A stretch of 64,000 bases of DNA from contig NZ_JUGF01000002.1 of assembly GCF_000799165.1 (NCBI RefSeq), positions 1,302,001-1,366,000 of the forward strand. Direction: 5' to 3'. This document shows positions 11,255-31,388 of the stretch, one piece after another. The notes under the pieces were generated by a model, which worked only from the letters and a program-made list of their open reading frames with translations, did no database searches and was not told the DNA's origin. The position numbers and the translations under genes were made by a program. Position 1 is the first letter of the stretch, and every line of letters starts with the position of its first letter. This stretch comes from Methylotenera versatilis 7. GTDB lineage: Bacteria > Pseudomonadota > Gammaproteobacteria > Burkholderiales > Methylophilaceae.

Positions 11255-11336
11255 TTACTTCCCTGACTCATTTTTGTAAAAATAAGTTATCTTAAATTTA
11301 TGACTTTGTTTATTGAGTGAATTTTACAATTATTAT

Positions 11337-12738: not shown

Positions 12739-12788
12739 TTGGTGGTGAAAGAGGGACTTGAACCCTCGACCCCAGGATTATGAATCCT
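12739..12788. repeat. Middle attachment site: 50-bp copy of the tRNA-Met 3' half
   Basis: A 50-base perfect repeat of 31311-31360, covering the tRNA-Met 3' end from CCA through the T arm to the anticodon stem. The match stops inside the anticodon arm, so this is not a working tRNA. It is the junction between elements B and A: the far att of element A and the near att of element B. Confidence 0.92.
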
Positions 12789-12902: not shown

Positions 12903-12920
12903 TGTCCCGCTAGTGTCCCA
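12903..12920. promoter_or_regulatory. Possible arm-type sites at the left end of element A
   Basis: Two TGTCCC motifs (12903-12908, 12914-12919) near the inner side of the att site. Related TGCCCCA/TGTCCC motifs lie at the other end (31144-31261). The repeat is short and variable, so this is tentative. Confidence 0.3.
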
Positions 12921-12937
12921 ACTAAAAATATTAATTA

Positions 12938-13421: not shown

Positions 13422-14879
13422 TTGCGGGAATTTCTAGAAGTAATTCCAGACCCAGTTTCACTTATTGAGTCTATGAGAGCTGTTGGCTATAGTGCACAAA
13501 CTGCTATAGCCGATATTATTGATAATAGCCTTTCCGCTAAAGCCTCTCAAATAAAAATTGAATATGATGCATCTCGTGAACCATTTGTATCAATACTTGA
13601 TAATGGTGAGGGGATGTATGCAAATGAGTTAACTAATGCAATGCGTCATGGCAGCAGCAATCCAAATGATGCAAGAGAGATTAATGATCTTGGACGTTTT
13701 GGACTAGGATTAAAAACCGCATCTTTATCCCAATGCAGAAAGCTAACTGTAGTTAGTAAAAAAGGCGGTCAGATTTATGCTAGATGTTGGGATCTTGACT
13801 ATGTACAAGAGAGAAATGGTTGGTTTGTTACGATACCAACAAAACTTGAGCTAGAAGAGTTACCCTTATTCAAAAGCTTGGTTGATCAAGAAGCAGGCAC
13901 ACTTGTTGTCTGGCAATTGCTTGATAAACTCATGTCAGGAGCGTATCAACCTCAGGATGAAATGAAAAACCGCATGCGTGATCTAGTTGATCATTTATCA
14001 TTTGTATTTCATAGATTTACTGAAAAAGAAGACGGAATAGATCCGGTTGATATTTTCATTAACGGTGTAAAACTTCATCCAGTAGATCCATTTTTAACAA
14101 AAAATTCTTTTACTCAGCCATTAGAAGGTCAGCGGATACCTGTTAATGAAGTAATTATTAATGTCCAACCTTACGTGTTGCCACACATGAGTCATCTCAA
14201 TATTGATGAGATTCAGCTTGCTGGTGGAAAAGATGGTTTAAGGCATAACCAAGGTTTTTATATTTATAGAAATAGAAGACTTGTAATTTGGGGAACCTGG
14301 TTCAGATTAGTACCAAAAGAAGAATTTTACAAACTTACTCGAGTAAAAGTAGATATTCCAAATACATTGGATCACTTATGGTCATTGGATATCAAAAAAT
14401 CTGTTGCGTACCCACCAGATGTTATTAGAAATAGACTTAAAGAGTTAATTCCACACTTTGCTAATACAAGCAGAACAACAATTACATACCCAGGAAGAAA
14501 ACAAAAAAATATATCTTTCGAACCTATTTGGGTAAGAACTGAACCTAGTCACGGTACATTTAGATATGACATAAACATCAATCATCCAGCGTTGTTAGAA
14601 ATAACAAATCGGATTGATAAAGATGGTCAACAAAGTATTCAATTTTTGATGAAGCTTATTGAAACAGCCTTACCCTTAGAATCAATATATTCAGATCTTT
14701 GCTCAGACAGAAGAAATGATTTTGAACTTGAGGGTGAGTTAATAAAGCAGCTAGTCGAAATTGCGAAAAAGTTAATAGAGATAGCAGGTATTAATATCAC
14801 GGAAGTTTTTAACTTAGACCCAATCGCAAGATATCCCCAACATCATAATAAAATTATTGAGGAATTAAGTAATGAGTAA
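13422..14879 (+). CDS. MORC-like GHKL ATPase of a defence operon
   Basis: A 485-residue ATPase with an N-terminal GHKL (Hsp90/MutL/histidine-kinase) fold. The N-box is DIIDNS (31-36), the first glycine motif DNGEGM (60-65) and the second GRFGLGLKTASLS (91-103). This matches prokaryotic MORC-type ATPases found beside Z1 helicases in predicted restriction-like systems. ATP-driven dimerisation is expected. The start is TTG with AAAAGG eight bases upstream; no ATG lies near the conserved N-terminus. It overlaps the Z1 gene by eight bases and is the first gene of a four-gene operon. Confidence 0.85.
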   Translation: MREFLEVIPDPVSLIESMRAVGYSAQTAIADIIDNSLSAKASQIKIEYDASREPFVSILDNGEGMYANELTNAMRHGSSNPNDAREINDLGRFGLGLKTASLSQCRKLTVVSKKGGQIYARCWDLDYVQERNGWFVTIPTKLELEELPLFKSLVDQEAGTLVVWQLLDKLMSGAYQPQDEMKNRMRDLVDHLSFVFHRFTEKEDGIDPVDIFINGVKLHPVDPFLTKNSFTQPLEGQRIPVNEVIINVQPYVLPHMSHLNIDEIQLAGGKDGLRHNQGFYIYRNRRLVIWGTWFRLVPKEEFYKLTRVKVDIPNTLDHLWSLDIKKSVAYPPDVIRNRLKELIPHFANTSRTTITYPGRKQKNISFEPIWVRTEPSHGTFRYDININHPALLEITNRIDKDGQQSIQFLMKLIETALPLESIYSDLCSDRRNDFELEGELIKQLVEIAKKLIEIAGINITEVFNLDPIARYPQHHNKIIEELSNE

Positions 14880-17598
14880 TCTGGAAATTAACCATTTAGG
14901 TGTTGCGATGAATATCGTAAATGGGAGGCCGCTTACAGATGACTTATTAAATGAAGTTTTAGTGATAATTTCAAGTATTGACACCAATATTAGTAAAGAG
15001 CAAATCACTTCTTTAAAAAAGCAACTCGAGCACAACATTGGAATTAAGATGAGCTCTGGTGAAGTTATTCATGCAGATGATCACATTCCTTGGGTAGAGG
15101 ATGCAAAGGCAAAGATATCTTGGGACTATTGGAAAAGCTATACTCAATTATTAATATCAGAAGGATGGACTAAAGAGGTTGTTGATGTTTTAAATGAAGA
15201 TACGGATAAAGTTCTTACCGAATGTGGAAATCCTTTACTGACCGACGGCTGGAAACACCGTGGACTTGTAATGGGGGATGTTCAATCTGGAAAAACTGCA
15301 AATTATAGTGGGCTTATCGCCAAAGCTGCAGATGCTGGCTACAAAGTTATCGTACTGCTTACTGGCTTAATTGAAGAACTCAGGAAACAAACTCAGGAAA
15401 GAATGGACGAAGGTTTTGTAGGTAGAAACAGTCGAGATGTTCTTGGTGTTAATCAAAACATGGACCCTATTGGAGTGGGGAAATATAGAAACAAATTTGC
15501 AAATGTTTTAACTTCATTAGATTCAGATTTCTTAACTTCAAATTCTAGAGCGCTCAGAGGGATTCCTCTATCCAATATTAGTGAGCCAGTTTTGTTTGTA
15601 ATCAAAAAAAATAAATCTCCGCTTGAAAATCTTAATAAATGGCTTTCTCAACAATTGCCTGCTAGTTTAACTGAGCATGACTTGCCATTACTTATAATAG
15701 ATGACGAAGCAGACAATGCTTCAGTCAATACCAAAAAGGATGAAGATGATCCGGCAACTATAAATAGATTAATTAGAGATTTGTTGAGTAAGTTTTCTAG
15801 ATCAACATATGTGGCTTTTACAGCGACACCATTTGCTAACGTGTTTATTAATCCAGAAAACGAAAAAGATCTTTTCCCTTCCAATTTTATATATAGCTTA
15901 AATAGTCCTTCAAATTACATTGGAGCAGAAAGTATTTTTTCTGAAGAAGGGAAGCACTACAGTCAATTAAGAATAATTACAGATATTGAATTACCTATAC
16001 CTGAGTCACATAATAAGGATCATGAATTAGATGACATTCCTCAAAGCATGAAAGATGCAGTTAAAGTTTTCATGTTGACTTGTGCAATTCGTGACATACG
16101 AAAAGAAAAGCTTAAACATCGGACTATGCTAATAAATGTAAGTAGGTTTAATGATGTACAAGCTCAAATTGCTGAATATTTAAGGCAATATTTGACAGAT
16201 TTAAACGAAGAAATCCTTCAATACCTTTTAAGTACTTCTTGGTCGACTCACCCAAAGTTAATTGATCTTAAAAATATTTGGGAAAATGAATTTCATAATT
16301 CTGGTGTAAGCTGGGATGAATTAAGAAGTGAGTTGCATAAATCAACAGCTTCAATAAAGGTTGTTAAAGTTAATCAAAAGTCAGATGAAAAATTAAATTA
16401 TTCGGAATACAAAAATACAGAAAAAGGTCGAAGAGTTATTGCCATTGGAGGACTCGCTCTTTCTAGGGGATTAACACTTTATGGGCTTTGTGTAAGTTAT
16501 TTTTATCGTAACTCCAAAGCATATGACACATTACTTCAAATGGGAAGATGGTTTGGTTACAGACCAGGATACGATGATCTTTTCAGAATTTGGATGGATA
16601 ATGATGCCATTGATAGGTTTGCACATATTTCTACAGCTGTAAGTGAATTAAGAACAGATTTTCGTCGTATGAGTGCAAACCGGTTGTCACCGGACAAGTT
16701 TGGTATTCGAGTTCAGTCACATCCTGACTTACTTATAGTTACTGCTTTAAATAAAATGCGTAATTCTTCCGAAATAGTACATCAAATATCTTTCAGTGGT
16801 TTTGATGCTGAAACTCCCTTTTTAAACAAAAATCTAAATCTAAATACTGAGAATGTATTAATAGCCGATAGTTTTGCCAAAACCCTTGGTTTAGCTAGGG
16901 AAGTTGGTAGAAAGTATTTATGGGAAAAAGTTGATAAACAATTAGTTTATGAGTTTATTTCAAAACTAAATATTTCTGAAATGAATTTTAAATTCATTGT
17001 AGATTCAAAAAGTAAGACTAAACCTCTAGTTGATTTTATTGGCCAAAACAATATTGAAAAATTAAGCAAATGGGATATTTGTATTCCACAGGGCATAGGA
17101 GCAGAAGTTGGCAATTTTGTTCAAAATCTTTCAGATATTACTTCAAACATAAAATGTCAAAATAGAAAGTTTGAGGTGGTTGCAAAAAATGTTAATTATC
17201 TAAAAGTTAATAAGCAAAAGGTGGGTGATACTGGAGATGAAAAAGTCGGAATGTCAGTTGGAGAAATTGAAAGTGCTGAAAATGCTTGGCTAAAAGAATT
17301 AGAAAAAGATCCAACAAAAGGTAAAACTACACCTGCATATATGTATCGGTTATTCCGTTCCAGACCTCTATTAACGATTCACTTTGTGGGTTTAAGTAAC
17401 GTTGAGCCTGACGATAAAAATATGATGCTGCCTGCTGATATTGAATCTAAGGTAGTAGTAGCAATAAGTCTGAGCTTTCCTGATTTTGAAGAATTAGGAA
17501 AAGATAATCCAAATTCTAAAGTTGTATATCGGCTAAATAAAATAGCTATGGCAGAATTATTTGGATCCAATGACGAGGATGAAGAAGATGAAGATTGA
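14872..17598 (+). CDS. Z1-domain helicase-like protein
   Basis: A 908-residue superfamily II helicase-like protein with a Z1 domain. Walker A is GDVQSGKT (135-142), Walker B/DEAD is LIIDDEAD (274-281), motif III is AFTATPFANVF (about 318-328) and the arginine-finger motif is QMGRWFGYR (556-564). The long C-terminal part (about 650-908) ends in an acidic DEDEEDED tail. The protein probably moves along or remodels DNA for the linked nuclease. GAGGAA precedes its ATG, which lies inside the end of the MORC-like gene, so translation is coupled. Confidence 0.88.
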   Translation: MSNLEINHLGVAMNIVNGRPLTDDLLNEVLVIISSIDTNISKEQITSLKKQLEHNIGIKMSSGEVIHADDHIPWVEDAKAKISWDYWKSYTQLLISEGWTKEVVDVLNEDTDKVLTECGNPLLTDGWKHRGLVMGDVQSGKTANYSGLIAKAADAGYKVIVLLTGLIEELRKQTQERMDEGFVGRNSRDVLGVNQNMDPIGVGKYRNKFANVLTSLDSDFLTSNSRALRGIPLSNISEPVLFVIKKNKSPLENLNKWLSQQLPASLTEHDLPLLIIDDEADNASVNTKKDEDDPATINRLIRDLLSKFSRSTYVAFTATPFANVFINPENEKDLFPSNFIYSLNSPSNYIGAESIFSEEGKHYSQLRIITDIELPIPESHNKDHELDDIPQSMKDAVKVFMLTCAIRDIRKEKLKHRTMLINVSRFNDVQAQIAEYLRQYLTDLNEEILQYLLSTSWSTHPKLIDLKNIWENEFHNSGVSWDELRSELHKSTASIKVVKVNQKSDEKLNYSEYKNTEKGRRVIAIGGLALSRGLTLYGLCVSYFYRNSKAYDTLLQMGRWFGYRPGYDDLFRIWMDNDAIDRFAHISTAVSELRTDFRRMSANRLSPDKFGIRVQSHPDLLIVTALNKMRNSSEIVHQISFSGFDAETPFLNKNLNLNTENVLIADSFAKTLGLAREVGRKYLWEKVDKQLVYEFISKLNISEMNFKFIVDSKSKTKPLVDFIGQNNIEKLSKWDICIPQGIGAEVGNFVQNLSDITSNIKCQNRKFEVVAKNVNYLKVNKQKVGDTGDEKVGMSVGEIESAENAWLKELEKDPTKGKTTPAYMYRLFRSRPLLTIHFVGLSNVEPDDKNMMLPADIESKVVVAISLSFPDFEELGKDNPNSKVVYRLNKIAMAELFGSNDEDEEDED

Positions 17599-18538
17599 GC
17601 AAGTGTGGAGAGACATACTTTTAAATCATGAGTCTTTGCAATTTGTAGAGGGAGATTACCAGTTAAAATTATTGGACCCAGAAGCGAAGTTTAGTTTCTT
17701 TGCAGGAGTAGACAGCGACAAGAGTGTTTTAATTGCTATCGAAATCAATTGCAGACCACCCGATATTAACCTTGAAACTCAAGCAATTGATTATTTTAGA
17801 AGTCAAAGAAAAAATGGCACTTGGCTGATGGCCTTACGTTTATATGATTTAGATCTAGTAACTGTATTTGGCAGATTATGCCAAGATTTAATTGATGCTT
17901 CTGCTGGTATGCCAAGCCAAACAGCTTTAATAAAGTTGTTTAAAGATAGATTAAATTTATGGAAAAAATTATTTCAAAATAGTAACAAAGGGCTACTTCA
18001 AAAACATGAAATTAAAGGTTTATTGGCGGAGTTGGTTGCTTTAGAAAACTTATTGACTTCAACAACCTCCGCTACAACTATAGTAATGGGATGGATTGGC
18101 CCACAAGGTGCAGATCAGGACTTTATTTTCAATGATTTTGCTCTCGAAATCAAAGCAATTGCACCTTCAGTTACTCAAGTTGGCATTTCATCTATTGAAC
18201 AGCTTGATTCAATTTTACCTATAGAGCTTTGGATTTATGTCTTAAGGGAAAGCAATTCCGATGAAAAAAATAATATCAACCTACTCAGCCAAGTATTAAA
18301 AATTGAGGCAATATTAAATTCAGAACCAAATGCATTAAACATTTTTAAAGCTAAAGTGCTTGAATCAGGATATGTAGAAAATGAGTTTTATAAGGACATC
18401 TGCTTTAAAGTTACAGATGAAATGAAATTCACAATTACTGATGATTTTCCAAAATTAAAGCGTGAGCTCATGCCATCAGGGATTTTAGAGGCCGCATATA
18501 ATATTTCACTGTCTGCAATAAGCAATTTCAGGATATAG
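17588..18538 (+). CDS. PD-(D/E)XK motif protein (DUF4420 type)
   Basis: About 316 residues, the candidate nuclease of the operon. Asp178 (in GADQDF) followed by E187-I-K189 (in LEIKA) gives the PD-(D/E)XK pattern. An earlier helix, KGLLAELVALENLL, would provide the preceding acidic residue. I chose the ATG at 17588, which has GAAGAAG just upstream and overlaps the Z1 gene by 11 bases; an upstream ATG at 17561 is also open but would encode only extra charged residues. It stands between Z1 and AIPR, the order seen in known gene sets of this type. Confidence 0.8.
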   Translation: MKIEQVWRDILLNHESLQFVEGDYQLKLLDPEAKFSFFAGVDSDKSVLIAIEINCRPPDINLETQAIDYFRSQRKNGTWLMALRLYDLDLVTVFGRLCQDLIDASAGMPSQTALIKLFKDRLNLWKKLFQNSNKGLLQKHEIKGLLAELVALENLLTSTTSATTIVMGWIGPQGADQDFIFNDFALEIKAIAPSVTQVGISSIEQLDSILPIELWIYVLRESNSDEKNNINLLSQVLKIEAILNSEPNALNIFKAKVLESGYVENEFYKDICFKVTDEMKFTITDDFPKLKRELMPSGILEAAYNISLSAISNFRI

Positions 18539-18539
18539 C

Positions 18540-20648
18540 ATGGATATAAGTGAGTTTCTAATCGAATTGCGTCAGCTAGTTGCGAGAAGAAGTGCGGCAA
18601 GCCATTTAGTAGACACACTCGCATTTGTAAATGAAGTCGCAAATAGGTTAGAGGAAGACCCTGTCTTTGGCGAGTTTGAACAAATTGAGTTCCAAGGAAC
18701 TGGATCCAGAAATCGGATGCTTAGAGTTCATGGGTTCACTAGATTTGAAGATTCAGACGGTAGTATTGGGCTTGTAATTGGTAGATGGGAAGATATTGTT
18801 ACACCAGAAACACTCTCAACCTCAACTGTGAATCAACTTTCTGGGTATCTTGAAAACTTTGTTAGAGAGTCAATTGAGAATAATCTTTGTGAACGCATTG
18901 CAGAGGCGAATCCCGCCTATGAACTTTCCTTACAGTTATTTAATGAAAAAAAGAAAATCAACAGGATTCGACTGCACATTCTCACCAATTTGACTCTAAG
19001 CAGCAAATTTAAAGAAGAGCTTCAAGGAGAGGTCGCTGGTATTCCACTGGAAAAACACATTTGGGATTTGGAGAGGCTTTCTGCCATCTATCAATCCAGT
19101 ATGGAGCGAGAAGCTGTAGAAATTAGTTTTTCTGAGTACTCCAGCACAGGAGTTCCTTGTATTGAAGCCGCTAACTCAGATACCTTGAAGTCCTTCCTTT
19201 GTGTAATTAAGGGTGATTTATTGGCTAATCTATTCGACAGATATGGAAGTAGATTGCTAGAGGGAAATGTGCGCTCATTCCTAGGCATGAAGGGTGGGGT
19301 GAATAAAGGAATAAGGTCAACTATTCAAGATAATCCAGATTTATTCTTTGCCTATAATAATGGGATTGCAGCAACTGCATCCGCGATAGAGGTCGACCAT
19401 AGTTTTGGCATACCAGTCATTACGAAACTAACGGATTTGCAAATCGTTAATGGGGGGCAAACAACAGCTAGTATTCTCAGCGCACGAAAGAAAGATAGGC
19501 TTTCATTGGATGGTGTTTCAGTACAAATGAAACTAACAGTTGTAGAAAGATCTAATGCACAAAATCTGATTCCAAAAATTGCCGAATATGCGAATACTCA
19601 AAACAAGGTGGCAGTCGCTGACTTTTTTGCAAATCATCCTTTTCATCAAAAAATGCAAACTATATCCCGTAGACTACTCACTCCAGCGCGTGCAGGTCAG
19701 AGGATACAAAGCAAATGGTTTTATGAACGTTCACGTGGTCAATATCAAAATGAGAGATTGTATTTAAGTACATCACAAAAAAATGCTTTTGATAAAGAGT
19801 ATCCAAGTGAGCAAATGATTAATAAAACAGAGCTCGGAAAATTTGATAATACTTGGAATGAAAAACCATACTGGGTAAGTCTTGGCGCTCAGAAAAACTT
19901 TACTAAGTTTGCAAACCAATTTGATAGTAAAAATCCTGAACTTAGTGAAAGTGAATATTGGGACTTAATAAGTCCAAAATATGGGGATTCATATTTTAAA
20001 AATATCGTTTCAGTTGCCATTTTATGGGCATCAATGGAAAGGATTGTAGATTCAGCAAAAAGTACATGGTATCAAGGTGGCTATAGGGCAAATATTGTGA
20101 CTTATACTATTTCAAAGCTTTTTCATGAAGCTAGATCAATTGATAAAGAGATTGACCTTGACTTGATTTGGCTTAAACAGGAACTTCCTTTTGATTTAAT
20201 AAGGTATCTTGAAAAGATAGCCATCGTAATACAGTCAATAATTTTGGAGCCACCTCCTGGTGAAAAGAATGTTGGGGAATGGTGTAAAAAAGAATTATGT
20301 TGGAAGAATGTGTCCAACCTAGAAGTTGCCTCGATAGAGGAAATAAATATATTTCTAGTTGGTGTTGATGAGTTTAAAGCTAGAGCGAGGGACGGCGTAG
20401 TAGAAGGCGCCATTGATGATAGCATTTCAATACAAGGTAAAGTTCTTAACCTCACCAGTTCTGGATATTTTATGAAGCTATATTACTGGTCTGATTTTAC
20501 GTCGCATTTCTCACCTTTAGACAAAGCGCTAGTACTCAAAGCTAGTACGCTACAAGGTTTTATGAAAATTCCGTTGGAAAAAGACTGGAAAAGATTGCTT
20601 GAAATTAGATCCGGAGCTGAAGATGAAGGGTTCAGGATGTCAGCCTAA
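18540..20648 (+). CDS. AIPR family protein (abortive-infection phage resistance)
   Basis: A 702-residue AIPR protein. The family signatures FFAYNNGIAATAS (about residues 269-281) and LQIVNGGQTTASIL (about 301-314) are both clear. AIPR proteins include abortive-infection factors, but their biochemical activity is poorly known. AGGAT seven bases before the ATG supports the start, one base after the preceding stop codon. It is the last gene of the rightward operon and ends seven bases before the convergent HNH gene. Confidence 0.88.
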   Translation: MDISEFLIELRQLVARRSAASHLVDTLAFVNEVANRLEEDPVFGEFEQIEFQGTGSRNRMLRVHGFTRFEDSDGSIGLVIGRWEDIVTPETLSTSTVNQLSGYLENFVRESIENNLCERIAEANPAYELSLQLFNEKKKINRIRLHILTNLTLSSKFKEELQGEVAGIPLEKHIWDLERLSAIYQSSMEREAVEISFSEYSSTGVPCIEAANSDTLKSFLCVIKGDLLANLFDRYGSRLLEGNVRSFLGMKGGVNKGIRSTIQDNPDLFFAYNNGIAATASAIEVDHSFGIPVITKLTDLQIVNGGQTTASILSARKKDRLSLDGVSVQMKLTVVERSNAQNLIPKIAEYANTQNKVAVADFFANHPFHQKMQTISRRLLTPARAGQRIQSKWFYERSRGQYQNERLYLSTSQKNAFDKEYPSEQMINKTELGKFDNTWNEKPYWVSLGAQKNFTKFANQFDSKNPELSESEYWDLISPKYGDSYFKNIVSVAILWASMERIVDSAKSTWYQGGYRANIVTYTISKLFHEARSIDKEIDLDLIWLKQELPFDLIRYLEKIAIVIQSIILEPPPGEKNVGEWCKKELCWKNVSNLEVASIEEINIFLVGVDEFKARARDGVVEGAIDDSISIQGKVLNLTSSGYFMKLYYWSDFTSHFSPLDKALVLKASTLQGFMKIPLEKDWKRLLEIRSGAEDEGFRMSA

Positions 20649-20655
20649 ATATCAC

Positions 20656-21480
20656 TTATAAGCATTTTTTAGTTTGAATTGATTTTAACTTTACTTTTAT
20701 TTCTGCATACTCCATTGCATAGAGTTTCATGTACACATGTACAGCTTTGTGACAATTTGGACAAAGTAATGCAAAATCATCTAGGGTCACAAAGGTATCA
20801 GCGGAGTAGTTTGAAATCGGAATTTTATGATGTGCTTCGATATAATCAACTCCATATTTAGCATTAAAAATTTCCTCACAAATATTGCATTCCCATTTTT
20901 GAGTTTTTTTTAACTCTTTTATAATTTTAATATTTCTTTCTGCTATTAGGTGGGTCACAAACTTACGACCGCCTTCTTTGTAGAGTTGATTCTCTTGCGA
21001 TATCTCTAAGGCATGACTTTCATCAAAGTTAATTTGACGGTGCAAAGTAACATAGTTATCTTTAAGCTCACTAATTAAAAACTTGCCTTCATAGTTCCAG
21101 TTGTTTTTTATCTCTGTAAATAACAATATTGGATATAGATACTGTGGCTGATTAATTAAAACTTGATTTGCCTTTTCTGAGTAAGACACTTTTCCCTTAT
21201 TGGCCTTAAACGAATAAAAATATATATCCTTATTATCGGTAGACCAACCATCATGATCATACAAGCCTAGGCGTGTCTTAATAATTACTGCTTTTAACTC
21301 TGGAAGCGTCCCAATCCAGTTAATTCCTTGCTGTGGTGTATTTCCAATTATTGAATCTTCATCACTCCAATACTGCGAATCTTTGACTTTAGAGTACTGA
21401 ATTAAATCAAACAAGTTTCTCTTAGTAACTGTGTCTCCTATTTCAAGCATAAGAAGATCATTTGATTTTTTCAATTGCAT
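20656..21480 (-). CDS. HNH endonuclease paired with a C5-methyltransferase
   Basis: A 274-residue protein with a C-terminal HNH domain: CNICEEIF (about residues 202-209), EAHHKIPIS (about 218-226) and LLCPNCHKAVH (about 241-251), i.e. two cysteine pairs and the HH core. The N-terminal 190 residues have no fold I know and may recognise a DNA site. It lies 24 bp downstream of the C5-methyltransferase on the same strand, so the pair resembles a type II restriction-modification unit with the nuclease translated second. Confidence 0.8.
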   Translation of the reverse strand: MQLKKSNDLLMLEIGDTVTKRNLFDLIQYSKVKDSQYWSDEDSIIGNTPQQGINWIGTLPELKAVIIKTRLGLYDHDGWSTDNKDIYFYSFKANKGKVSYSEKANQVLINQPQYLYPILLFTEIKNNWNYEGKFLISELKDNYVTLHRQINFDESHALEISQENQLYKEGGRKFVTHLIAERNIKIIKELKKTQKWECNICEEIFNAKYGVDYIEAHHKIPISNYSADTFVTLDDFALLCPNCHKAVHVYMKLYAMEYAEIKVKLKSIQTKKCL

Positions 21481-21504
21481 GACATCTCCCCCAAGTAAAT
21501 TACT

Positions 21505-23073
21505 CTAGGACAACAAATTTTTAACGATACCTGCAATTTTTAAAGCTAGTAGGGGGGGGACTGCGTTTCCTACCTGATGTAGTTGCTGTGTTCTGTTTCC
21601 TTGAAAAAAGTAATTATCAGGGAATGTTTGTAATCTTGCCGCTTCCCTTACTGTTAGACTTCTGCACTGATTTGGATCTGGATGTATAAAGTAATGCCCA
21701 TCTTTTGAAATATGGCTTGTTACTGTAGTGGCATATTTATCCCAAAGTTGCACACGAAACCTATCACTAAATTTACCACTTTCCCAATTTGCGTGAGCTG
21801 GCCGCAAACCGCTAAGGGTATATTCTTCATGACCTTTGGGCGAGCGTTGATAAGCTGTTGCAAATGCCGAAGCATAAAGGTACCTTCTTAAGTCACTTTG
21901 CATGTGTCCACGAGTTTCGTGATTCATCCAGACATTTAGCCGGTCATCTTCATACCAATGATTCATAGGTAGATCATTAGATTTTTTCCTACTGTAAATT
22001 CTTTTATTAAAATCGACTCTTAATCCACCGAATCCAAAATTACTACGATCTTCTAATTCAAGTGCTCTTAATATTTTAGTCAATTCTTCAAGACCAGCAA
22101 CTGACGAAGCTTCTTCACTCAACTCTTCAATATGTTGGTTTACTATTGTTGCCCAATTAAGTGCTGTATCAACCCCACCCTTGCTTAGGCGGCTTCTAAG
22201 GGTAGGAAGTGCTTTAATCACATCACTGACTTTAACAGTAGGTGCCTTTTCTAACTGAGCTGGCAATTTTCTCAGGTCATCCCTGACTCCCAGTAAAATG
22301 ACCCTATGTCTAGCTTGCGGAATGCCGAATTCTTCCGCTTTTATTACAAAATCATTCGCCTTAAATGTTGCTGCGTCCATGCCTGTTTCATAATAAGCTG
22401 GGACAACGAGAGAGTAAATTTTATATTTAAAGCCCGAAGGATTTTGCTGAAGTGCTTCATCTGGGTTTGACAGGTCTGAAAGAATTTCATGAAACACCTT
22501 CTTGCCGTTCACCTTAGATGAAAGGATCCCTTTTACATTTTCCATTACAAAAACTGTTGGTTTATATTTCTGAATAATTTCTAAGTATTCTTTATAAAGA
22601 AAATGCCTAGGATCATTCTCAGCCTTATACTGAGCATTACCTAAATTCCTAGACCTACCGACTATTGAATATGCCTGACAAGGAGGACCGCCAATTAGCA
22701 CCCAAGGTTTTTCTGAACCTAACTGACCAGCTTGAATGGAGTCATTTAATACTTTGTCACCCTCAGCAGTTCCTAATTCTATCTGTCTAGCTTCAAGCTG
22801 TGCATCTTCCCACTCTGTTAATGTAGATTCGTCATATGGAAAAGCCGATTCTCCATTGCAAAAGCGATAGTAACAATCTAGAGCATTTCCACCTTTGAGT
22901 TTTAATTTTCTAAAAAAAGCTCTTAGAGTGAGTGTTTGATGGGCTGATGTTTCCTTCTCAGCTGAAATAAGTATTTTAAAAGCAGAGCCATTATCAAGTG
23001 AGGAAAAGCCTTCACCAAGTCCTCCTGGCCCTGCAAATAAATCTACGATTGGAATATGATTATTTTTTTGCAT
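21505..23073 (-). CDS. dcm: DNA (cytosine-5) methyltransferase
   Basis: A 522-residue C5-methylase with the canonical motifs in order: I VDLFAGPGGLGEGF (about 10-23), IV GGPPCQAYS with catalytic Cys (about 127-135), VI MENVKGI (about 177-183), VIII QARHRVILLG (about 253-262), IX REAARLQTFPD (about 475-485) and X QVGNAVPP (about 499-506). It is longer than simple C5-methylases because of a large variable region between VIII and IX that probably reads the target. It could protect host DNA from the HNH enzyme, and perhaps from the nuclease of the opposite operon. The symbol is generic. Confidence 0.95.
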   Translation of the reverse strand: MQKNNHIPIVDLFAGPGGLGEGFSSLDNGSAFKILISAEKETSAHQTLTLRAFFRKLKLKGGNALDCYYRFCNGESAFPYDESTLTEWEDAQLEARQIELGTAEGDKVLNDSIQAGQLGSEKPWVLIGGPPCQAYSIVGRSRNLGNAQYKAENDPRHFLYKEYLEIIQKYKPTVFVMENVKGILSSKVNGKKVFHEILSDLSNPDEALQQNPSGFKYKIYSLVVPAYYETGMDAATFKANDFVIKAEEFGIPQARHRVILLGVRDDLRKLPAQLEKAPTVKVSDVIKALPTLRSRLSKGGVDTALNWATIVNQHIEELSEEASSVAGLEELTKILRALELEDRSNFGFGGLRVDFNKRIYSRKKSNDLPMNHWYEDDRLNVWMNHETRGHMQSDLRRYLYASAFATAYQRSPKGHEEYTLSGLRPAHANWESGKFSDRFRVQLWDKYATTVTSHISKDGHYFIHPDPNQCRSLTVREAARLQTFPDNYFFQGNRTQQLHQVGNAVPPLLALKIAGIVKNLLS

Positions 23074-23242
23074 TTAAAAATTGTCTTCTTAGAAAAATGC
23101 AAACTCACTAGGATGAATGAAGTTAGGATAGAGTCCAAGTGGATATTGATTTATCGTTTTTATTTTTAGCTTGTGTGCCAAAGTCTAAATAGACTGTATA
23201 GAAATTACAATTTAATTATACATAGCTTAGTTAGGATCCACA

Positions 23243-24187
23243 TTAAAGAATAGCACTCACTGCGTTATCAATAAACAGTTTAGCATCTCTGATATAGCGG
23301 TTGAGCATGGCATCTGACTTATGGCCTGTTTGCTGACGTATCTTCCAACTAGAAACCCCTGCTTGCGCTGCGCTGGTGACTAGGCCAGCACGTAAACTAT
23401 GACCTGAAAATTTACTAGCATCTAAGCCAATCGCTTTAGCACGTTCTTTAACGATGATGGCGACTGCTTGTGTGGATAAAGCACTAGTTTCGATTCTTCC
23501 GTGTCGAGTGACTGGCCTAAATACTGCACCCTCACTTATTTCAATGAGTTTTAGCCAGTCTTTAAGTGCAAGCACCGGGCATACACTACCTCTGGCATAC
23601 GGAATCGCTATCTTGCGACCCTCGCCTTGCTGGTCAGTCTTAGATTTGCCTAAATGTACAACCAAACCATGTTCTACAAATTCAATATCAGAATATTGCA
23701 GCCCAACCAGCTCACTTCTACGAAATGCACCAGCAAACCCAATTAATAACAATGCACGGTCACGGTAACCTTTAACACCTTCTAATCCAGCCACCATATC
23801 AAGCAGATTATTTTTAAGGACAGGTTCAACTTGACGTTGTTTAGTGCTGACGATTCGCTTAATACCGCGTAACGTAGCCTTAACCAAGTCTGATTTAGTT
23901 GGAGAGAGTAAATTCTGCGAAGTGTGTGCTCTATTGATACTCACTACACGCCGACTAAGGGTCGCAGGTGCAAGTAAATCAGCATGGACTGCTAAATATT
24001 GGCTGATAATTTCAGGGGTTGAGGGTATGTGTCCGCCCCAACTAATAAAGTGCGCTAAATCAGATTGATATGAGCTCCTTGTACTGGAAGCCAGTGCTGC
24101 ATGGATGTATTTTTCAAAATCACTTTTCAGTGCAATTAATTGCACTTTAGATACATTATTGCAGTATATAGAGTGTGATGATGACAT
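23243..24187 (-). CDS. Tyrosine recombinase, internal to element A
   Basis: A 314-residue XerC/D-like recombinase, distinct from the P4-type integrases. A SAM-like core-binding domain (about 20-110) precedes the catalytic domain: FRRSELVGL (Arg), GKSKTD (Lys), HSLRAGL (His-x-x-Arg), TGHKSD and nucleophile Tyr in NRYIRDAK. All catalytic residues are present, so it should be active. No short direct repeats were found beside it. It may be left from an earlier insertion that brought the defence block, or may resolve element dimers. Confidence 0.9.
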   Translation of the reverse strand: MSSSHSIYCNNVSKVQLIALKSDFEKYIHAALASSTRSSYQSDLAHFISWGGHIPSTPEIISQYLAVHADLLAPATLSRRVVSINRAHTSQNLLSPTKSDLVKATLRGIKRIVSTKQRQVEPVLKNNLLDMVAGLEGVKGYRDRALLLIGFAGAFRRSELVGLQYSDIEFVEHGLVVHLGKSKTDQQGEGRKIAIPYARGSVCPVLALKDWLKLIEISEGAVFRPVTRHGRIETSALSTQAVAIIVKERAKAIGLDASKFSGHSLRAGLVTSAAQAGVSSWKIRQQTGHKSDAMLNRYIRDAKLFIDNAVSAIL

Positions 24188-24258
24188 TTTAGTATTTTAA
24201 ATTTTGGTCATTTTTGGACTTCGAGAATGTAATATTATGGCTAGTTAGAAATAAAGTT

Positions 24259-25431
24259 TTAGCCTCTAATCACGTCTATATGCGCTGCTCTAATTTGCTG
24301 TAATAAAGACATCTCTTTATTTATCAAATCAATAAGCTTAATTGTTTCTTCTTTTGTTTTTAAGCCAGCACCTTGCATTTCCATCAATTCAATCTGTTCC
24401 TTTATTGATTGTGAGCCTGTGAAGATAAACTCGCGGTTTAACAAGCTCCCCTCAATAATGAATAACACTGTACCAACCAACTTAGTCGAATTCTTATTTG
24501 GGTATTCAATAAAAAACTGCTGCAACAGTTTGCTAGCAGCTACAAAATCTGAAATTACTTGCCTCCCGCTGCGACAGTAAATATCTAACGAGGCCAGATT
24601 GATTCCTTGGTATTCGTTGCTATGTAAGATCTCATCCTTAACTTGTGTATTAGTTGCTTCCATCAACATTTCAAATGCTAACAACATTGCTGCGTTCAAA
24701 CCTGCTGTCTTAGCATTTCCTAGCAATACCGCTTGATTAAGCACATCTGGCAATGACATAGCATCACAGATCTGACCCAACAAGTCTAATCGTGCTTTAG
24801 AGATGGTTCGGTGATAGCCATTTGAATGCCGCTCAGAAAAACCTGAAATAACTTTTAAAGCGGTCATGCGATGAGTTATATATAAGCTTGTATCAAGTGC
24901 GACAGTGACTAATCTTTCCACGGGTGTATTTAAACAACAGTGTAAATAATTGGCGGCATCCGGATCGGAAAGGGTGAAGCAGTAAATATCAGTTGCGTTT
25001 CGGGACTTTGCTGATTTAACCATTTGCTCAACCAGATAATGGATAACTTTATCTCGACCATAGGCATTATGTAACCGCTTGCTTGATGCAAGGAGTGTTA
25101 GCAAGCAAAGGCTGGGATTTGCAATACCTATATCCTCAAAAACAATTATTTGAAGTCTTTTGATTAGATAAGCTGGGTCAAGACTTAAAAGAGTCGAGGT
25201 GGCATGGAATGCTGTTTTAACTTCGCCTCTACGAATGCTTTTGTGCAAACTACTAACCGCTACCCATTTGTCATATACAGCTGGTTCAGTATTTGCAAAT
25301 GAATAATGACTTAACTCAGTATTAAGTAGCGATTCAATGTGCTTTTCTAGAATGTGTTCGCCGAATAAATCTTGAGATGCTGCTATTAGGTTGGTTTCAA
25401 GAAAAGCTTGCTTGCAAAATTCTTTTGACAT
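24259..25431 (-). CDS. Stand-alone RarA/MgsA C-terminal-like protein (no AAA+ domain)
   Basis: A 390-residue protein whose N-terminal third resembles the helical region after the AAA+ domain of RarA/MgsA. SSLHKSIRRGEVKTAFHAT (about 60-78) and YLIKRLQIIVFEDIGIANPS (about 88-107) follow the RarA pattern of KSIRGS-D-AALY and RRL-ASEDIG-ADP. No Walker A or B motif is present. The rest is helical with no recognised fold. In RarA and clamp loaders this region forms the oligomerisation collar, so it might bind host RarA, SSB or replication proteins. Similarity was seen by eye only. Confidence 0.6.
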   Translation of the reverse strand: MSKEFCKQAFLETNLIAASQDLFGEHILEKHIESLLNTELSHYSFANTEPAVYDKWVAVSSLHKSIRRGEVKTAFHATSTLLSLDPAYLIKRLQIIVFEDIGIANPSLCLLTLLASSKRLHNAYGRDKVIHYLVEQMVKSAKSRNATDIYCFTLSDPDAANYLHCCLNTPVERLVTVALDTSLYITHRMTALKVISGFSERHSNGYHRTISKARLDLLGQICDAMSLPDVLNQAVLLGNAKTAGLNAAMLLAFEMLMEATNTQVKDEILHSNEYQGINLASLDIYCRSGRQVISDFVAASKLLQQFFIEYPNKNSTKLVGTVLFIIEGSLLNREFIFTGSQSIKEQIELMEMQGAGLKTKEETIKLIDLINKEMSLLQQIRAAHIDVIRG

Positions 25432-25529
25432 TTGATTCTCATAAGTAATTGGTGATAAAACTTATCTTCACCTTATACGAGAGATTGTCAAATGTTTATA
25501 AATATCAATGACTTATATAATTTAATTGG

Positions 25530-26000
25530 CTATATTTCAATTTCTTCTGCCTTTGACAGTAATATATTCTTTGAAATTTCAATTTTATTGCCATTGCTAT
25601 CAAAGGAAATAGATTGATTTTTAAATTGGTTCTTTAAATCAAAATCAGCCATTCTGTGTATTAAGCTTTTTTCAAGCATACTGTTTACGGATGCTGTGGT
25701 AGACAAAACACCTAAAGCAGCTTTCAAGCGAGTGTTTGAAGGTAGCCGCATATCACAAAGTATTTCTTGAAGTGTTTGAACCGCTGTTAACGTAGTAGCG
25801 TTCATCTGCTTTGCAATTTCTTCTAATCCAGATGTTGTAATTGAATTAAGTTTTGCTTCAAACTCAGGCAACTTTTGCCAACGATAAACTGTCATGGTTG
25901 AAACTTCCAGCTGCGCTGCTACTAAGTAAGCTGGAGTTCCTAAAGATAACAACTTAACTGCATTAAGCTGTCTGGCCTTTAGAGACTTAACATTGTTCAT
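25530..26000 (-). CDS. HTH protein resembling a phage terminase small subunit
   Basis: A 156-residue protein with an N-terminal helix-turn-helix: LSLGTPAYLVAAQLEVST (about 18-35) and MTVYRWQKLPEF (about 36-47). The following region, EEIAKQMNATTLTAVQTLQEI, and a helix of SNTRLKAALGVL are typical of phBC6A51-like small terminase or transposase-type HTH proteins. No large terminase or other packaging gene is visible in the element. It may let a satellite redirect helper-phage packaging or may simply be a regulator. Its neighbours are the RarA-like protein and the primase. Confidence 0.65.
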   Translation of the reverse strand: MNNVKSLKARQLNAVKLLSLGTPAYLVAAQLEVSTMTVYRWQKLPEFEAKLNSITTSGLEEIAKQMNATTLTAVQTLQEILCDMRLPSNTRLKAALGVLSTTASVNSMLEKSLIHRMADFDLKNQFKNQSISFDSNGNKIEISKNILLSKAEEIEI

Positions 26001-26373
26001 TTAAATACCCCACAAAATATAACAATTCATAACATTTTTACATGTGCACCGAGTCATAAACGAAGTCCTCCAATATGAATCTTTTTAAGTCTATGAAAGT
26101 CAATGTAATTTAAGCAGTTGTCCCAGCAATAAAAGTAGATGTAGGATGTAACTCCTTAATTATTAATTGATGTTCTAGAAGTCAATGGTGTCATGGCAAT
26201 ATATTGACTTACGCAGAGTCTTAGAAATTAACAGACCAATATCACACATGATTACCTTTACGAATAACATATAAACTCCTATGACTCAGTTGACATGGTT
26301 GACAAACCCATTTCCATAACGCACTCATGTGTCCTAGCAATTTTATACTCCTAGGACACTAACAACGGTTCCT
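26001..26373. other. Gap with paired hairpin after the primase
   Basis: No gene is visible in these 373 bases. A perfect 9-bp inverted repeat, GTGTCCTAG (26329-26337) and CTAGGACAC (26351-26359), lies just after the primase stop codon. It lacks a T-run, so it may be a replication-associated palindrome rather than a terminator. A TTGACA direct repeat lies nearby (about 26290-26303). Confidence 0.4.
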
Positions 26374-28596
26374 CTACAAATTCCAAATTGTTGAGTCTGA
26401 TTTGCACGCATTCTCAAACTCATTCCGACAAGTTTTTAATGTGCTAAAAATATAGTGGTTTTGCCGTATCGTTGGGATGGGGCCATACGATTCCGGTTTC
26501 TTCTTACATTCCGTGAGACTTGGCAAAGTGCGTTTCAATTGTTTACCAAACACTGAAGCAATCGATTTATGTTTTTTACCATTATCGTTGCACCAATCAA
26601 GATATATTTTGTGCAACGATGCCTTACTTACTGAACAATCCCAATTATCTTCTGATGCCTCACGCAAGTATTCGTAAATAAAACTATCAGTAGAGTCCAT
26701 TGATAATAATTTCAAGTCAAAGTTAAACGGTGTATGCGGCACTTTGCGAACATTAAATTTCGATAAATCACGTTTTTTCAGAAAATACATCAACGCTTCA
26801 GAACCTCCTTGACGCATTTGATTAATAATTGCACCAAAATAATTGTGGTCTTCCTTATGCTTATTACTTACATTAAGAATGAAAAAGCGTCTGTCGTCTT
26901 TACCAACTGGAACAGCCCAATCTTCATTAGATGAGACCATTATTCGCTTGTAATTACCAAGGCGTATCACATCCTTAAATTTCTGTTCAATTGATGAGTC
27001 TGGGTCTGTAATCATCGCTTTTAGAGCGCCCTCAGCTGACTTGTTGCCGCCCCAAGTTGCCTCGTTGGCATAAACTAATAATACATCTTTAAGATGCCCT
27101 GTGAATCTACCCACAAGCTGCTCAATGCCTGATAGAGTAATGTAGTGTGGCTCAATCAGCCTTCCTAACTCATCGGTTGCCACGCCTTTACCAGTACCTT
27201 GGGCTCCACGAAACACAATTGCAACGCCGGGTAACTCCCAAGGTCGCTGAATCATGTGCGCCATCCAGCTCAATAGATATTCATAATAATCAGTATTGCC
27301 ACGGCATATGTTGTCGCTTAAATGTTGGAGGTAGAGGCTACAATCACCTTTGATGGCTTGTATTGCGAACCCCCTGAATAGATTGTAAAACGCTGAAGAA
27401 GCCCCTTGTGGTGAAAACACTATTCCGTCATATGACCTACGTTTTTCATCTTTCATCCAAGCGTCAATAATACTTACATCGTGCTGTTTTCCGAGTAAAT
27501 CAGTGGTTACAACGCGCATGTTGGCACACTTTAACTTCAGTTCACCTAAGCGGCAAAGACTAATGTCCTGCCTTCCTTTCTCATTGATAAACTCTGTGAT
27601 TACGAATGTCTGACCAGTCATAAAAACTACCGCATATGTTTTGTTCAACTCCTCTACGGTAATTTCGCTTTGTGTAGGTTTGGAGTCACTAAGCTTGTTT
27701 GATTCGTTGCAAGTTGTATTTTCACTACCCCAGAGTTGAGAGATGCTAGCAATGTCTAACTCAGGATTCTCATTGAGCGCATCTGCTACATCCCAACCAA
27801 CTGGCTTTCCTTCGGGTATTAATAGTAAGGTGCAAGATTTTGCACCTGCAGCAATAATGGCTTTGGCGCAGTTCTGCGCATATACGATGCCAGGGTTATC
27901 GTTGTCTCTCCAAATCATTACCTCTTTACCTTTAAGTGGTGCCCAGTCAGTTTTAGCGGCAGGGGCGTTAGCACCCATCATTGCAGTGGTGGCGCAATAT
28001 CCCGCATCTATGAGTGCTTGTGCGCATTTCTCACCCTCTACCAAAGCTACCAGCTCTGATTTCGCAATTCCAACAAGATTGTATAAAGGGCGTGGCTCGG
28101 GAGGGACTTTATACTCTTTGGTTTCTTTGTTGTATGGACGGATCGTTTTTTTGCCACTGGAATCTTCCATGCGGATAGTTGTGCAAATATATGTACCGTC
28201 AGCATTCAGATAGTCCCACTCAGCGACTTTTACAAAAGTTGTATCATTGTTAAGCTGAGTTTTGTCGTTGTCTGGTGCCCCAGATTTGCCTATTTCAGCT
28301 AAAGTGGTTTCTACTTTTCCAAACACAGCTTCTACATCGGTTTTAATATTTAAATCGAAATGCGCAGCGACAAAATCAATAATATTGCCAGACTCTTGTG
28401 TAGCATGGTCAAACCAGCACCCTCTTTTTCCCCCAACCAAACTAATGCTTAAGCTGTTACCTGCGTTTCCGTGAATATCTCCTATTCTGGATTCTGTGCC
28501 AGTAAATTTAGCGGCAGGAATTATTTTTTTCAAAACCTGTTCTAAGTGCTCAATAAGGGAATTTTTAACTATATTTTGTTTTTTAGTTAGCGCCAT
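26374..28596 (-). CDS. P4-type primase-helicase of element A
   Basis: About 740 residues. The N-terminal part resembles a phage primase CHC2-like region (KRGCWFDHATQESGNIIDFV). A TOPRIM domain follows (about residues 180-270), with VALVEGEKCAQAL and the DxD motif WRDNDNPG. The C-terminal superfamily III-type helicase (DUF5906-like) has Walker A GAQGTGKG (about 460-468) and RFTGHLKDVLLVYANE. Such proteins start replication of P4-like satellites. The ATG at 28596 has GGGG eight bases upstream and is preferred over an in-frame GTG three codons earlier. Confidence 0.88.
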   Translation of the reverse strand: MALTKKQNIVKNSLIEHLEQVLKKIIPAAKFTGTESRIGDIHGNAGNSLSISLVGGKRGCWFDHATQESGNIIDFVAAHFDLNIKTDVEAVFGKVETTLAEIGKSGAPDNDKTQLNNDTTFVKVAEWDYLNADGTYICTTIRMEDSSGKKTIRPYNKETKEYKVPPEPRPLYNLVGIAKSELVALVEGEKCAQALIDAGYCATTAMMGANAPAAKTDWAPLKGKEVMIWRDNDNPGIVYAQNCAKAIIAAGAKSCTLLLIPEGKPVGWDVADALNENPELDIASISQLWGSENTTCNESNKLSDSKPTQSEITVEELNKTYAVVFMTGQTFVITEFINEKGRQDISLCRLGELKLKCANMRVVTTDLLGKQHDVSIIDAWMKDEKRRSYDGIVFSPQGASSAFYNLFRGFAIQAIKGDCSLYLQHLSDNICRGNTDYYEYLLSWMAHMIQRPWELPGVAIVFRGAQGTGKGVATDELGRLIEPHYITLSGIEQLVGRFTGHLKDVLLVYANEATWGGNKSAEGALKAMITDPDSSIEQKFKDVIRLGNYKRIMVSSNEDWAVPVGKDDRRFFILNVSNKHKEDHNYFGAIINQMRQGGSEALMYFLKKRDLSKFNVRKVPHTPFNFDLKLLSMDSTDSFIYEYLREASEDNWDCSVSKASLHKIYLDWCNDNGKKHKSIASVFGKQLKRTLPSLTECKKKPESYGPIPTIRQNHYIFSTLKTCRNEFENACKSDSTIWNL

Positions 28597-28636
28597 AAAT
28601 TGCACCCCAGCTGAATTATTATTGACTTATTAGTTT

Positions 28637-28942: not shown

Positions 28943-29061
28943 TGTCCTCATTAAATGCTGCTTATTCAGCAGTTATGAGTACAATAAGTCTGGAACTAAC
29001 CCTCCCCGCAACCCTCCCTAATTCCCTGTTTTTATAGGAGGGTCATGAAGGAGGGGCGTTA

Positions 29062-29895: not shown

Positions 29896-29896
29896 G

Positions 29897-31003
29897 TTAG
29901 CCCACTCCTAATGTCTTTGCAAGCGTGTTGCTAATCTCTGATGCTCGGGTGGGGGCAAGGTGGGCGTACCGACTTACCATCGCCATGGTACGGTGACCAA
30001 GTATCTTTGATATTTCTAGTGGGGAAACACCATTCATCATGAGGTACGACGCACAAGTATGTCGCAAATCATGCCAGTGAAAATCAGAAATAGCCGCCTC
30101 ACTTAATGCGGTTGTAAATGGCTTTCGCAAATGAAGAAAAGCAGATTTCCTAGAAGCAGGTGTAGGCGGGAATATTCGGTCGTCTGATAGGTTGCGTACC
30201 TTGGCTCGCTCTTGTAGTAAGGTTAATGCTTCACCTACTAGCGGCATCACTTTTGTGTCATTATTTTTAGTAGTGCCAGCCTGAAGCATTGCCCTGCCAG
30301 CATTAAGATCAATTTGCCCCCAACGAAGACTCATCACCTCAGATTGCCGTCCTCCAGTAGTGAGCGATAATAGCACTGCAAGATATAGATCGGGATGCTT
30401 GCGGCAAGCCAAAAGGAAGCGGGGCAGTTCGTCTGAATCAAGAAAGCGTACCCGACCCTTACTCTCTGCAAGCTTTGTAACGCGTTCTATCGGATTTCTT
30501 TCAAGCCACCCCAACTCTTTCACTCCATATGAACATGCGCTAGAAAGTGCAGCTAGAAATCGATTGGTAGTTGCCCCGCTCCTTCTCTTTTCGAGCGCAA
30601 CCTTCGTTACTAATCCGTCTACACCACGTTTGCGTACAGTAAGAAATTCATTTAGAAGTTGGTCGCGGCTTTTGGCTATCAAGGCTGGAGTAATATCTTT
30701 TAATAATTTACTGCCATGAGTTTTATGCCACCAATCAAGGCGTGCCTTCATATAACTTGCTGATTTAAGTTTTATATGTGCTGGGCTACTTTTATACTCA
30801 ATTAGTAGTTCACTTAGTGTGTGCAGTTTGCTCATACCAAAGTGGCGACCTGCTTTAATGTCTGCTTCGGTTTTTTGTACCCAGTCGCGAGCATCAGTCA
30901 TTCGAGTAAAAGTAGCACTTTCTGTGGGGTGCCCTTTCAGACGAATTTTCACGCGGTAACTAGTTGATCCGTCGCTGTTTTTACGTTTTTCAATTGTAGC
31001 CAT
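29897..31003 (-). CDS. int: Tyrosine integrase of element A
   Basis: A 368-residue integrase. An N-terminal AP2-like/arm domain begins MATIEKRKNSDGSTSYRV, followed by a core-binding domain. The catalytic domain shows GGRQSEVMSLRW (Arg), HDLRHTCAS (His-x-x-Arg), LGHRTMAM (His) and nucleophile Tyr in RYAHLAP. It differs from the P4-type enzyme of element B, yet both use the same tRNA-Met. Its start is 308 bp from the tRNA 3' end, with possible arm motifs in the gap. Confidence 0.95.
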   Translation of the reverse strand: MATIEKRKNSDGSTSYRVKIRLKGHPTESATFTRMTDARDWVQKTEADIKAGRHFGMSKLHTLSELLIEYKSSPAHIKLKSASYMKARLDWWHKTHGSKLLKDITPALIAKSRDQLLNEFLTVRKRGVDGLVTKVALEKRRSGATTNRFLAALSSACSYGVKELGWLERNPIERVTKLAESKGRVRFLDSDELPRFLLACRKHPDLYLAVLLSLTTGGRQSEVMSLRWGQIDLNAGRAMLQAGTTKNNDTKVMPLVGEALTLLQERAKVRNLSDDRIFPPTPASRKSAFLHLRKPFTTALSEAAISDFHWHDLRHTCASYLMMNGVSPLEISKILGHRTMAMVSRYAHLAPTRASEISNTLAKTLGVG

Positions 31004-31311
31004 GATTAGCTCGGAGAATAAATTTAATACTTATCCACACTCTAGTGTAAGTAGCAATAAATTACAACAGAGGATACAAAGTCCTCAAATACCGATGCAA
31101 TAAAACCATAAAATCAAGAAGATATGATTTATTCTTTGTGTAAGGGGCAGTGGTGGGGCATCTTAGGCTGAGTTAGAAGTTGACTCATTCAGGTGGGCGA
31201 CAGTTCTGATAAGCGCTTTAGTGAGTTGATTTGTTTTTCACGCTTGCCCCACGAGTGTCCCTTTAGGGCGCAAAAGAAAACGCCCCAATCTCTCGAAAGG
31301 GGCGTCTGTGT
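31004..31311. promoter_or_regulatory. Integrase A upstream region with possible arm sites
   Basis: The 308-bp gap holds no gene. It carries TGCCCC/TGTCCC-type motifs in both orientations: GGGGCA 31144-31149, TGGGGCA 31154-31160, TGCCCCA 31245-31251 and TGTCCC 31256-31261. Their place between int and the att core fits integrase arm sites. Confidence 0.35.
31280..31305 (-). terminator. Terminator of tRNA-Met
   Basis: A 7-bp stem (ACGCCCC / GGGGCGT), followed on the minus strand by TTTTCTTTT. It begins just after the tRNA 3' end and lies inside element A, which would therefore have restored a terminator on integration. Confidence 0.75.
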
Positions 31312-31388
31312 TGGTGGTGAAAGAGGGACTTGAACCCTCGACCCCAGGATTATGAATCCTGTGCTCTAACCAGCTGAGCTACATCACC
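31312..31388 (-). tRNA. tRNA-Met (anticodon CAT)
   Basis: A 77-base tRNA with encoded CCA (31312-31314). The minus strand begins GGTGATG, the D arm contains AGCTCAGCTGGTTAGAG, the anticodon loop TTCATAA gives CAT, and the T arm GAGGG-TTCAAGT-CCCTC is perfect. The acceptor stem has one T-T mismatch and one G-T pair at its base. CAT could also be Ile2 if modified, but the body resembles elongator Met. It is the attachment gene for elements A and B and remains intact. Confidence 0.93.

Follow-up and report, generated by a model that had tools for sequence, protein, structure and literature searches.

Described RarA-type proteins and DNA glycosyltransferases

RarA and WRNIP1 are among the most conserved genome-maintenance proteins. 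RarA is a working tetramer that is brought to forks via SSB, and the molecular function of RarA/WRNIP1 is still termed obscure (PMC8735627). No description of RarA collars lacking the ATPase was found in the open-access literature searched, and a family of this kind is apparently undescribed. The second described system of relevance here is the TET-associated glycosyltransferase (TAGT) family of DNA glycosyltransferases, which in T6-like phages likely adds a second sugar to modified cytosine (PMC13390438).

Element carrying the collar gene

The window (the whole stretch of 64,000 nucleotides from Methylotenera versatilis 7) contains an 18.6-kb tRNA-Met element (12739-31360), bounded by repeats and a tRNA-adjacent integrase. 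Its features are as follows.

12739..12788, no strand: attachment repeat at the far element end, 50-bp exact direct repeat
13422..20648, + strand: defence cargo, with MzaB-like HATPase, MzaC-like Z1, MzaD-like DUF4420 and MzaE-like AIPR proteins
20656..23073, - strand: cargo HNH endonuclease (20656-21480) and cargo 5-cytosine methyltransferase (21505-23073)
23243..24187, - strand: tyrosine recombinase, 71 bp downstream of the collar gene on the same strand (Pfam Phage_integrase 3.8e-16)
24259..25431, - strand: stand-alone RarA-type collar protein, long form, 390 aa, ATG start, without a P-loop
24397..24621, - strand: second part of the collar, about residues 271-345, placed by alignments; the structural alignment reaches residue 343
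24622..24951, - strand: helical insert of the long family, about residues 161-270, without a clear structural match
24952..25278, - strand: first part of the collar, residues 52-160, placed via alignment to 8g28/2r9g and by conservation
25530..26000, - strand: terminase-small-subunit (TerS)-like HTH protein, directly upstream of the collar gene (phrog_7344 1.8e-6, phrog_2538 9e-6)
26374..28605, - strand: primase-helicase, Toprim-like and DUF5906 (DUF5906 7e-20; phrog_1156 DNA primase 4.6e-42)
29897..31003, - strand: element integrase adjoining tRNA-Met (Phage_integrase 3.9e-28)
31311..31360, no strand: attachment repeat inside tRNA-Met (31312-31388), 50-bp exact direct repeat

The 50-bp repeat is a copy of the 3′ part of tRNA-Met. 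An integrase at a tRNA gene with flanking direct repeats marks the locus as an integrative element or satellite, and the primase gives it a replication gene of its own. The earlier note had placed the collar gene on a mobile element, which the integrase, the tRNA-Met gene and the 50-bp direct repeats confirm. No capsid or large-terminase genes were found among the ORFs scanned between 12.7 and 31.4 kb. For the TerS-like HTH protein, Pfam HTH_Tnp_1_2 gave 5.5e-5, under the cut-off. The HATPase/Z1/DUF4420/AIPR set matches the MzaB-E profiles and resembles a putative 'type II' defence system (PMC9523054). Scans for promoters and terminators gave fewer matches than shuffled sequences did and are not used as evidence for an operon.

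Two further genes adjoin the element (window positions 9098-12548): 9098-11254 encodes a type I-like N6 methylase protein, and 11337-12548 a further tyrosine integrase. This arrangement suggests that insertions occurred in tandem or that an older element occupies the same site.

Sequence and predicted fold of the collar protein

The first collar part of the 24259-25431 product holds HKSIRRGE (residues 63-70), EDIG (99-102, within EDIGIANP at 99-106) and KSR (142-144). The second part contains 'LDIYCRSG', a version of the family motif [LFA]DxHTxxG, followed by 'GTVLFIIEGS'. When the 390-aa ORF was compared with the PDB using phmmer, the significant matches were RarA collar chains only, namely 8g28 (E 4.3e-6, residues 56-146), 2qw6 (4e-5) and 2r9g (1.1e-4), all of them within residues 56-146. 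Pfam MgsA_C (PF12002) gave E 0.0011 and 19.3 bits, under the cut-off of 27. Neither a Walker A motif nor an AAA+ Pfam match was found in the collar ORF.

Based on an alignment of 30 window and viral relatives, AlphaFold2 produced a mostly helical collar model (pLDDT 89.0, pTM 0.88). Against the PDB, six RarA entries stood out for this predicted structure (Z 11.1-13.0), with the next unrelated chain at Z 3.9. The chain 8g28_A was aligned to the model with Z 13.0 and 2.2 Å over 105 of 108 residues at 30% identity. The structural alignments of the model to 2r9g and 3pvs span residues 52 to 343, so the protein appears to have both collar halves, with a helical stretch of about 110 residues inserted between them. 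For the central insert (about 161-270), the structure search gave no clear fold match, only weak HEAT-like rows.

The earlier note had read KSIRRGE and EDIGIANP as patterns of the RarA/MgsA region that follows the AAA+ core and had seen no P-loop. Both observations hold. The patterns lie at residues 63-70 and 99-106, where phmmer found its PDB matches, and the Walker A motif is absent here while being present in all 25 RarAs listed. Given these PDB sequence matches and the RarA fold, the two patterns are more than a motif coincidence. The structural comparison with RarA proposed in that note returned the RarA collar fold at Z 11-13 and not an unrelated fold. The RarA likeness, which it had located in the N-terminal part, is indeed present there but is not limited to it, since the structural alignment reaches residue 343. 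Of the two parts of a RarA/MgsA ATPase, the AAA+ core with Walker A is missing from the 24259-25431 product and the C-terminal collar fold is found. Lacking the AAA+ core that defines RarA ATPases, the product is outside that family and is almost certainly an ATPase-free RarA collar of the long, phage type.

A family of motorless collars

Family members were collected by tblastn and profile scans and fell into two size classes. The long form (~340-430 aa) occurs in phages KarBoss, RcZahn, DLP_3/DLP_5 and RHph_Y1_11, in metagenomic viruses and in a few bacterial genomes, while the short form (~180-250 aa) was found in phages of Microbacterium and Arthrobacter, in numerous metagenomic phages, on an E. 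faecium plasmid and in some chromosomes. Long collars numbered a handful among the several hundred genomes searched. Plasmids yielded weak collar matches only, none covering 80% of the long-form query. The collar had no PADLOC match to a known defence protein.

The Walker A motif, seen in all of the listed RarAs, is missing from every collar-only ORF of the fetched loci. When 62 collar-only sequences were compared with 27 RarAs, both groups proved invariant or nearly so at S60, K64, R67, E99, D100 and K142. The collar-only proteins add R68 (98%; G in RarA), W90 (94%; mostly A/G in RarA) and R144 (94%; N in RarA), which are absent from all 27 RarAs compared. D283 (95%), H285 (89%) and G289 (97%) are further residues of the 62 collar-only sequences; the RarA comparison set represents one bacterial order, so RarAs from elsewhere may have some of these 'new' C-terminal residues too. 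The many polar invariants, together with new ones belonging to the family, suggest that the collar-only proteins have retained a binding site and are not decaying fragments. The window collar has the residues shared with RarA as well as R68, R144, D283 and G289, and no P-loop. It departs from the family at two nearly fixed positions (W90I and H285Y).

In the maximum-likelihood tree, RarAs and long collars are separate clades, with support of 100/100 and 100/99, respectively. The window collar belongs to the long-collar clade, where its closest partner is a collar from a different family of the same order (support 81/75), and long collars of chromosomes and phages are intermixed. The host has an intact RarA of 445 aa on another contig (G000:C2). 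By score to the collar protein, it stands 24th of 27 RarAs (18.9 bits, the best being 27.4). A truncated host rarA was thus rejected as an explanation on the basis of this rank and the separate, fully supported RarA clade. The same low rank gives no sign of mimicry, and a mimic of host RarA finds no support.

Several collar genes were observed in other settings. On an Enterococcus faecium plasmid, a short collar gene (L033:4929-5546) lies between SIS-domain and PTS transporter genes, with no glycosyltransferase or ParB gene annotated near it. Microbacterium and Arthrobacter phage genes annotated as 'AAA-ATPase' lie at collar matches (L127:3983-4603 and L128:3920-4639). Their products (~206-239 aa) are too short for a RarA-type ATPase, which makes misannotation likely. 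In another phage (L071:7878-8846), the collar protein carries a fused SWIM zinc finger at its C-terminal end (MgsA_C 1.9e-11; SWIM 0.002, under the cut-off). Finally, a 1100-aa phage protein (L011:7536-10838, IMGVR_UViG_3300047655_000011) includes a long collar at about residues 155-505, followed by a 2′-5′ RNA ligase/2H phosphoesterase-like domain (PF13563 2.5e-7). Its gene is situated between portal-like and prohead-protease genes, so the collar may ride in a head-region protein.

Gene partners in phages

Phage neighbours were counted within 8 kb on the same strand. A ParB_N-like gene was found in 54 and a TAGT-type glycosyltransferase gene in 42 of the 63 viral collar-only loci. The same loci contained genes for large terminase (35), PIG-L (19), epimerase (14), WbqC (12) and GT4-type glycosyltransferase (9). 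Long-collar phages mostly have the version with PIG-L, epimerase, aminotransferase, GT4 and RapZ_C genes. In the reverse test, of 80 loci fetched by the TAGT gene, 70 contained a collar and 79 contained ParB. Within one TerL family, 10 loci had both collar and TAGT, one had the collar alone, none had TAGT alone and 48 had neither (Fisher p 1.8e-10). In the sole exception, L291, the TAGT gene lies just outside the 8-kb limit. Thinning to 50% identity left corresponding counts of 5, 1, 0 and 13 (p 5e-4), and a collar accompanied 12 of the 16 TAGT representatives. Control loci with a P22-like terminase gave 0/80 for collar, TAGT and ParB; these phages are closely related to one another, so the weight rests on the test within the TerL family.

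Neither TAGT nor ParB was matched among the window ORFs, and a TAGT/ParB cassette is thus absent from the window. In several phages, a gene for a small RapZ C-terminal-domain protein is located directly upstream of the long collar (L005:5590-5934, L007:5540-5875). RapZ in E. coli senses an amino-sugar phosphate, and the position of this RapZ_C protein is in line with the nearby sugar genes.

The long collar of phage DLP3 is gp78, whose gene lies ~12 kb from the ParB and terminase genes. The DLP3 genomic DNA was resistant to all 15 restriction enzymes tried (PMC7326821). A virion protein was rejected as an identity for the collar, as the 21 proteins named from DLP3 virion mass spectrometry do not include gp78, although in one metagenomic phage a long collar is part of a head-region protein (L011).

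Gene partner in bacteria

In all four chromosomal cases with an intact known neighbour, the long collar gene is immediately followed, on its own strand, by a gene of one tyrosine-recombinase family; one of the four known pairs is a close relative of the window pair. The pairs are those of the window, a Methylotenera MAG (L003), G456 (L065) and G1008 (L124, from a different class), with identities to the window recombinase of 90% (L003), 55% (L065) and 47% (L124). In L124, the collar and recombinase genes overlap by 4 bp. Outside these pairs, the collar copy of G1221 is broken and that of G265 stops at the contig end. The L003 collar has no N-terminal part, owing to a contig edge or truncation. 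Of 320 genomes of the order, 16 carry homologues of the recombinase, in 18 copies altogether; with a gene this uncommon, repeated adjacency to the collar is unlikely by chance. The dN/dS values of 0.18 for the C-terminal third of the collar and 0.05 for the recombinase indicate purifying selection. Close relatives of the recombinase in G395 and G201 have no adjoining collar, so the recombinase does not need one.

After the collar and recombinase genes, the Methylotenera MAG has Thoeris ThsA/ThsB genes (L003:2183-4138), while the window has methyltransferase, HNH and Z1/AIPR genes there. The defence cargo therefore differs between these loci. In G250 (L129), a window-type recombinase (57% identity) is located behind a SWIM-zinc-finger gene, and the integrase is 47% identical to that of the window. 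The SWIM protein directly upstream (L129:7197-8219) has a collar-like stretch, SAFIKSIR ... AAAED. In profile comparison, its similarity to the collar was not significant (probability 1.8%, E 0.028), and it was left out of the collar count.

Possible function of the collar protein

Starting from a family with the RarA collar fold, a lost motor and conserved gene partners that differ by context, we tentatively suggest the following, at somewhat less than even confidence: the collar is a DNA-structure or oligomer platform that brings a partner enzyme to DNA, here the downstream recombinase. The protein would form an oligomer through its collar fold and may bind DNA, replication-associated structures or fork partners without ATP hydrolysis. 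It would then act as a docking platform tethering a DNA-acting enzyme. The partner in phages would be the ParB/TAGT DNA-glycosylation machinery. On the element, it would be the recombinase at 23243-24187, which the collar may recruit and then direct or gate as a recombination accessory factor. Points that weigh against this reading are the collar-free recombinases of G395 and G201, the lack of TAGT and ParB in the window, the incomplete L003 collar, the small number of chromosomal pairs and the ~12 kb between the DLP3 collar gene and its ParB and terminase genes. A broader proposal, which we consider doubtful, is that the RarA collar targets DNA as a module in its own right, independently of ATP, and that viruses took this module from RarA or share it with RarA. 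It would deliver glycosyltransferases in phages, perhaps also in giant viruses, and a site-specific recombinase in bacterial elements. By implication, RarA's own collar would have a conserved ligand- or DNA-binding site beyond its part in holding the tetramer.

Other explanations were weighed against these data. The collar could be an accessory of DNA modification or anti-restriction that keeps its phage role here, working on the element's DNA together with the cytosine methyltransferase of the cargo or with other enzymes. The near-obligate link of the family to TAGT/ParB cassettes in phages, the methyltransferase on the same element and the restriction resistance of DLP3 DNA, from which its modification may be deduced (PMC7326821), would agree with this. 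However, the window has no glycosyltransferase or ParB gene, the methyltransferase is better matched to the Z1/AIPR set, and the collar-recombinase stretch of the Methylotenera MAG is followed by Thoeris genes without a methyltransferase, which leaves this role unlikely. The earlier note had instead proposed a dominant partner of host RarA or of a clamp loader. Such a protein would enter RarA tetramers or compete for SSB, altering fork repair to favour the element or to sense phage replication. The collar fold predicted for the protein is common to both, RarA is tetrameric and SSB-recruited (PMC8735627), and an intact RarA is present in the host. Nevertheless, this host RarA ranks near the bottom of the RarAs by score, R68, W90 and R144 are missing from every RarA compared, and the ~110-residue insert splits the collar. 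The neighbour genes also indicate other partners; those conserved encode glycosyltransferases, ParB and tyrosine recombinases, not replication-clamp proteins. The sequence evidence thus leans away from a partnership with host RarA, which we regard as quite unlikely, and neither this nor the clamp-loader proposal is supported.

An association with the TerS-like HTH protein, by which the collar would tag the element's DNA so that a helper phage packages it, as with phage satellites, is less probable still. The TerS-like gene is directly upstream, a large terminase gene is situated no more than 8 kb from the collar in 35 of 63 viral loci, and the element combines an integrase and a primase with no capsid genes, as satellites do. 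On the other hand, no TerS-like homologue adjoins the collars of the fetched loci, the L065 and L124 pairs have no recognisable packaging gene nearby, and the terminase link in phages may be mere gene order. The least probable explanation is that the gene is a passenger in decay, left over from a phage and now without a role. This could account for I and Y at the nearly fixed positions 90 and 285, the truncated L003 relative and the rarity of the gene, a handful in several hundred genomes searched. Against it stand the full-length frame, the high-confidence fold, the dN/dS of 0.18 and the repeated pairing with one recombinase family.

Comparison with known systems

The closest described proteins are RarA/MgsA/WRNIP1 (PF12002; PDB 3pvs, 2r9g, 8g28, 3bge and 3ctd), with which the window collar shares the predicted fold (Z 11-13) and S60, K64, R67, E99, D100 and K142. 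Unlike them, the collar family has no AAA+ core or P-loop, has RRG in place of RGS and KSR in place of KSN, and has W90 in most members; the long window collar additionally contains the helical insert of ~110 residues and has other gene partners. A viral family that keeps the collar and its polar invariants suggests that the collar acts alone, and it offers small, ATP-free proteins to study.

The long phage collars (352-375 aa) of Vibrio phage KarBoss, Rhodobacter phage RcZahn (gp141), Stenotrophomonas phages DLP_3/DLP_5 and Rhizobium phage RHph_Y1_11 have their architecture, full-length alignment and clade in common with the window collar. Their genes lie amid those for PIG-L, epimerase, aminotransferase, glycosyltransferase, RapZ_C and ParB, whereas the window copy is beside a tyrosine recombinase gene. 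The short phage collars (about 190-250 aa), such as gp89 of Microbacterium phage ClearAsMud, annotated as 'AAA-ATPase', are likewise ATPase-free and carry the same diagnostic residues. They differ from the window collar in having no insert, in a significant MgsA_C match in Pfam (for those tested) and in their tight TAGT/ParB link. This near one-to-one link predicts an unrecognised component of phage DNA glycosylation, and 'AAA-ATPase' labels in dozens of phage genomes would be corrected.

Giant-virus proteins in BFVD match most of the model (E 2e-5 to 3e-3), a likeness by predicted structure only. They include the Orpheovirus 'RarA' of 346 aa, Pithovirus LCPAC and Cedratvirus proteins, and a 657-aa 'putative glycosyltransferase' of Heterosigma akashiwo virus. 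The last of these predicted matches points the same way as the TAGT link of the phage collars.
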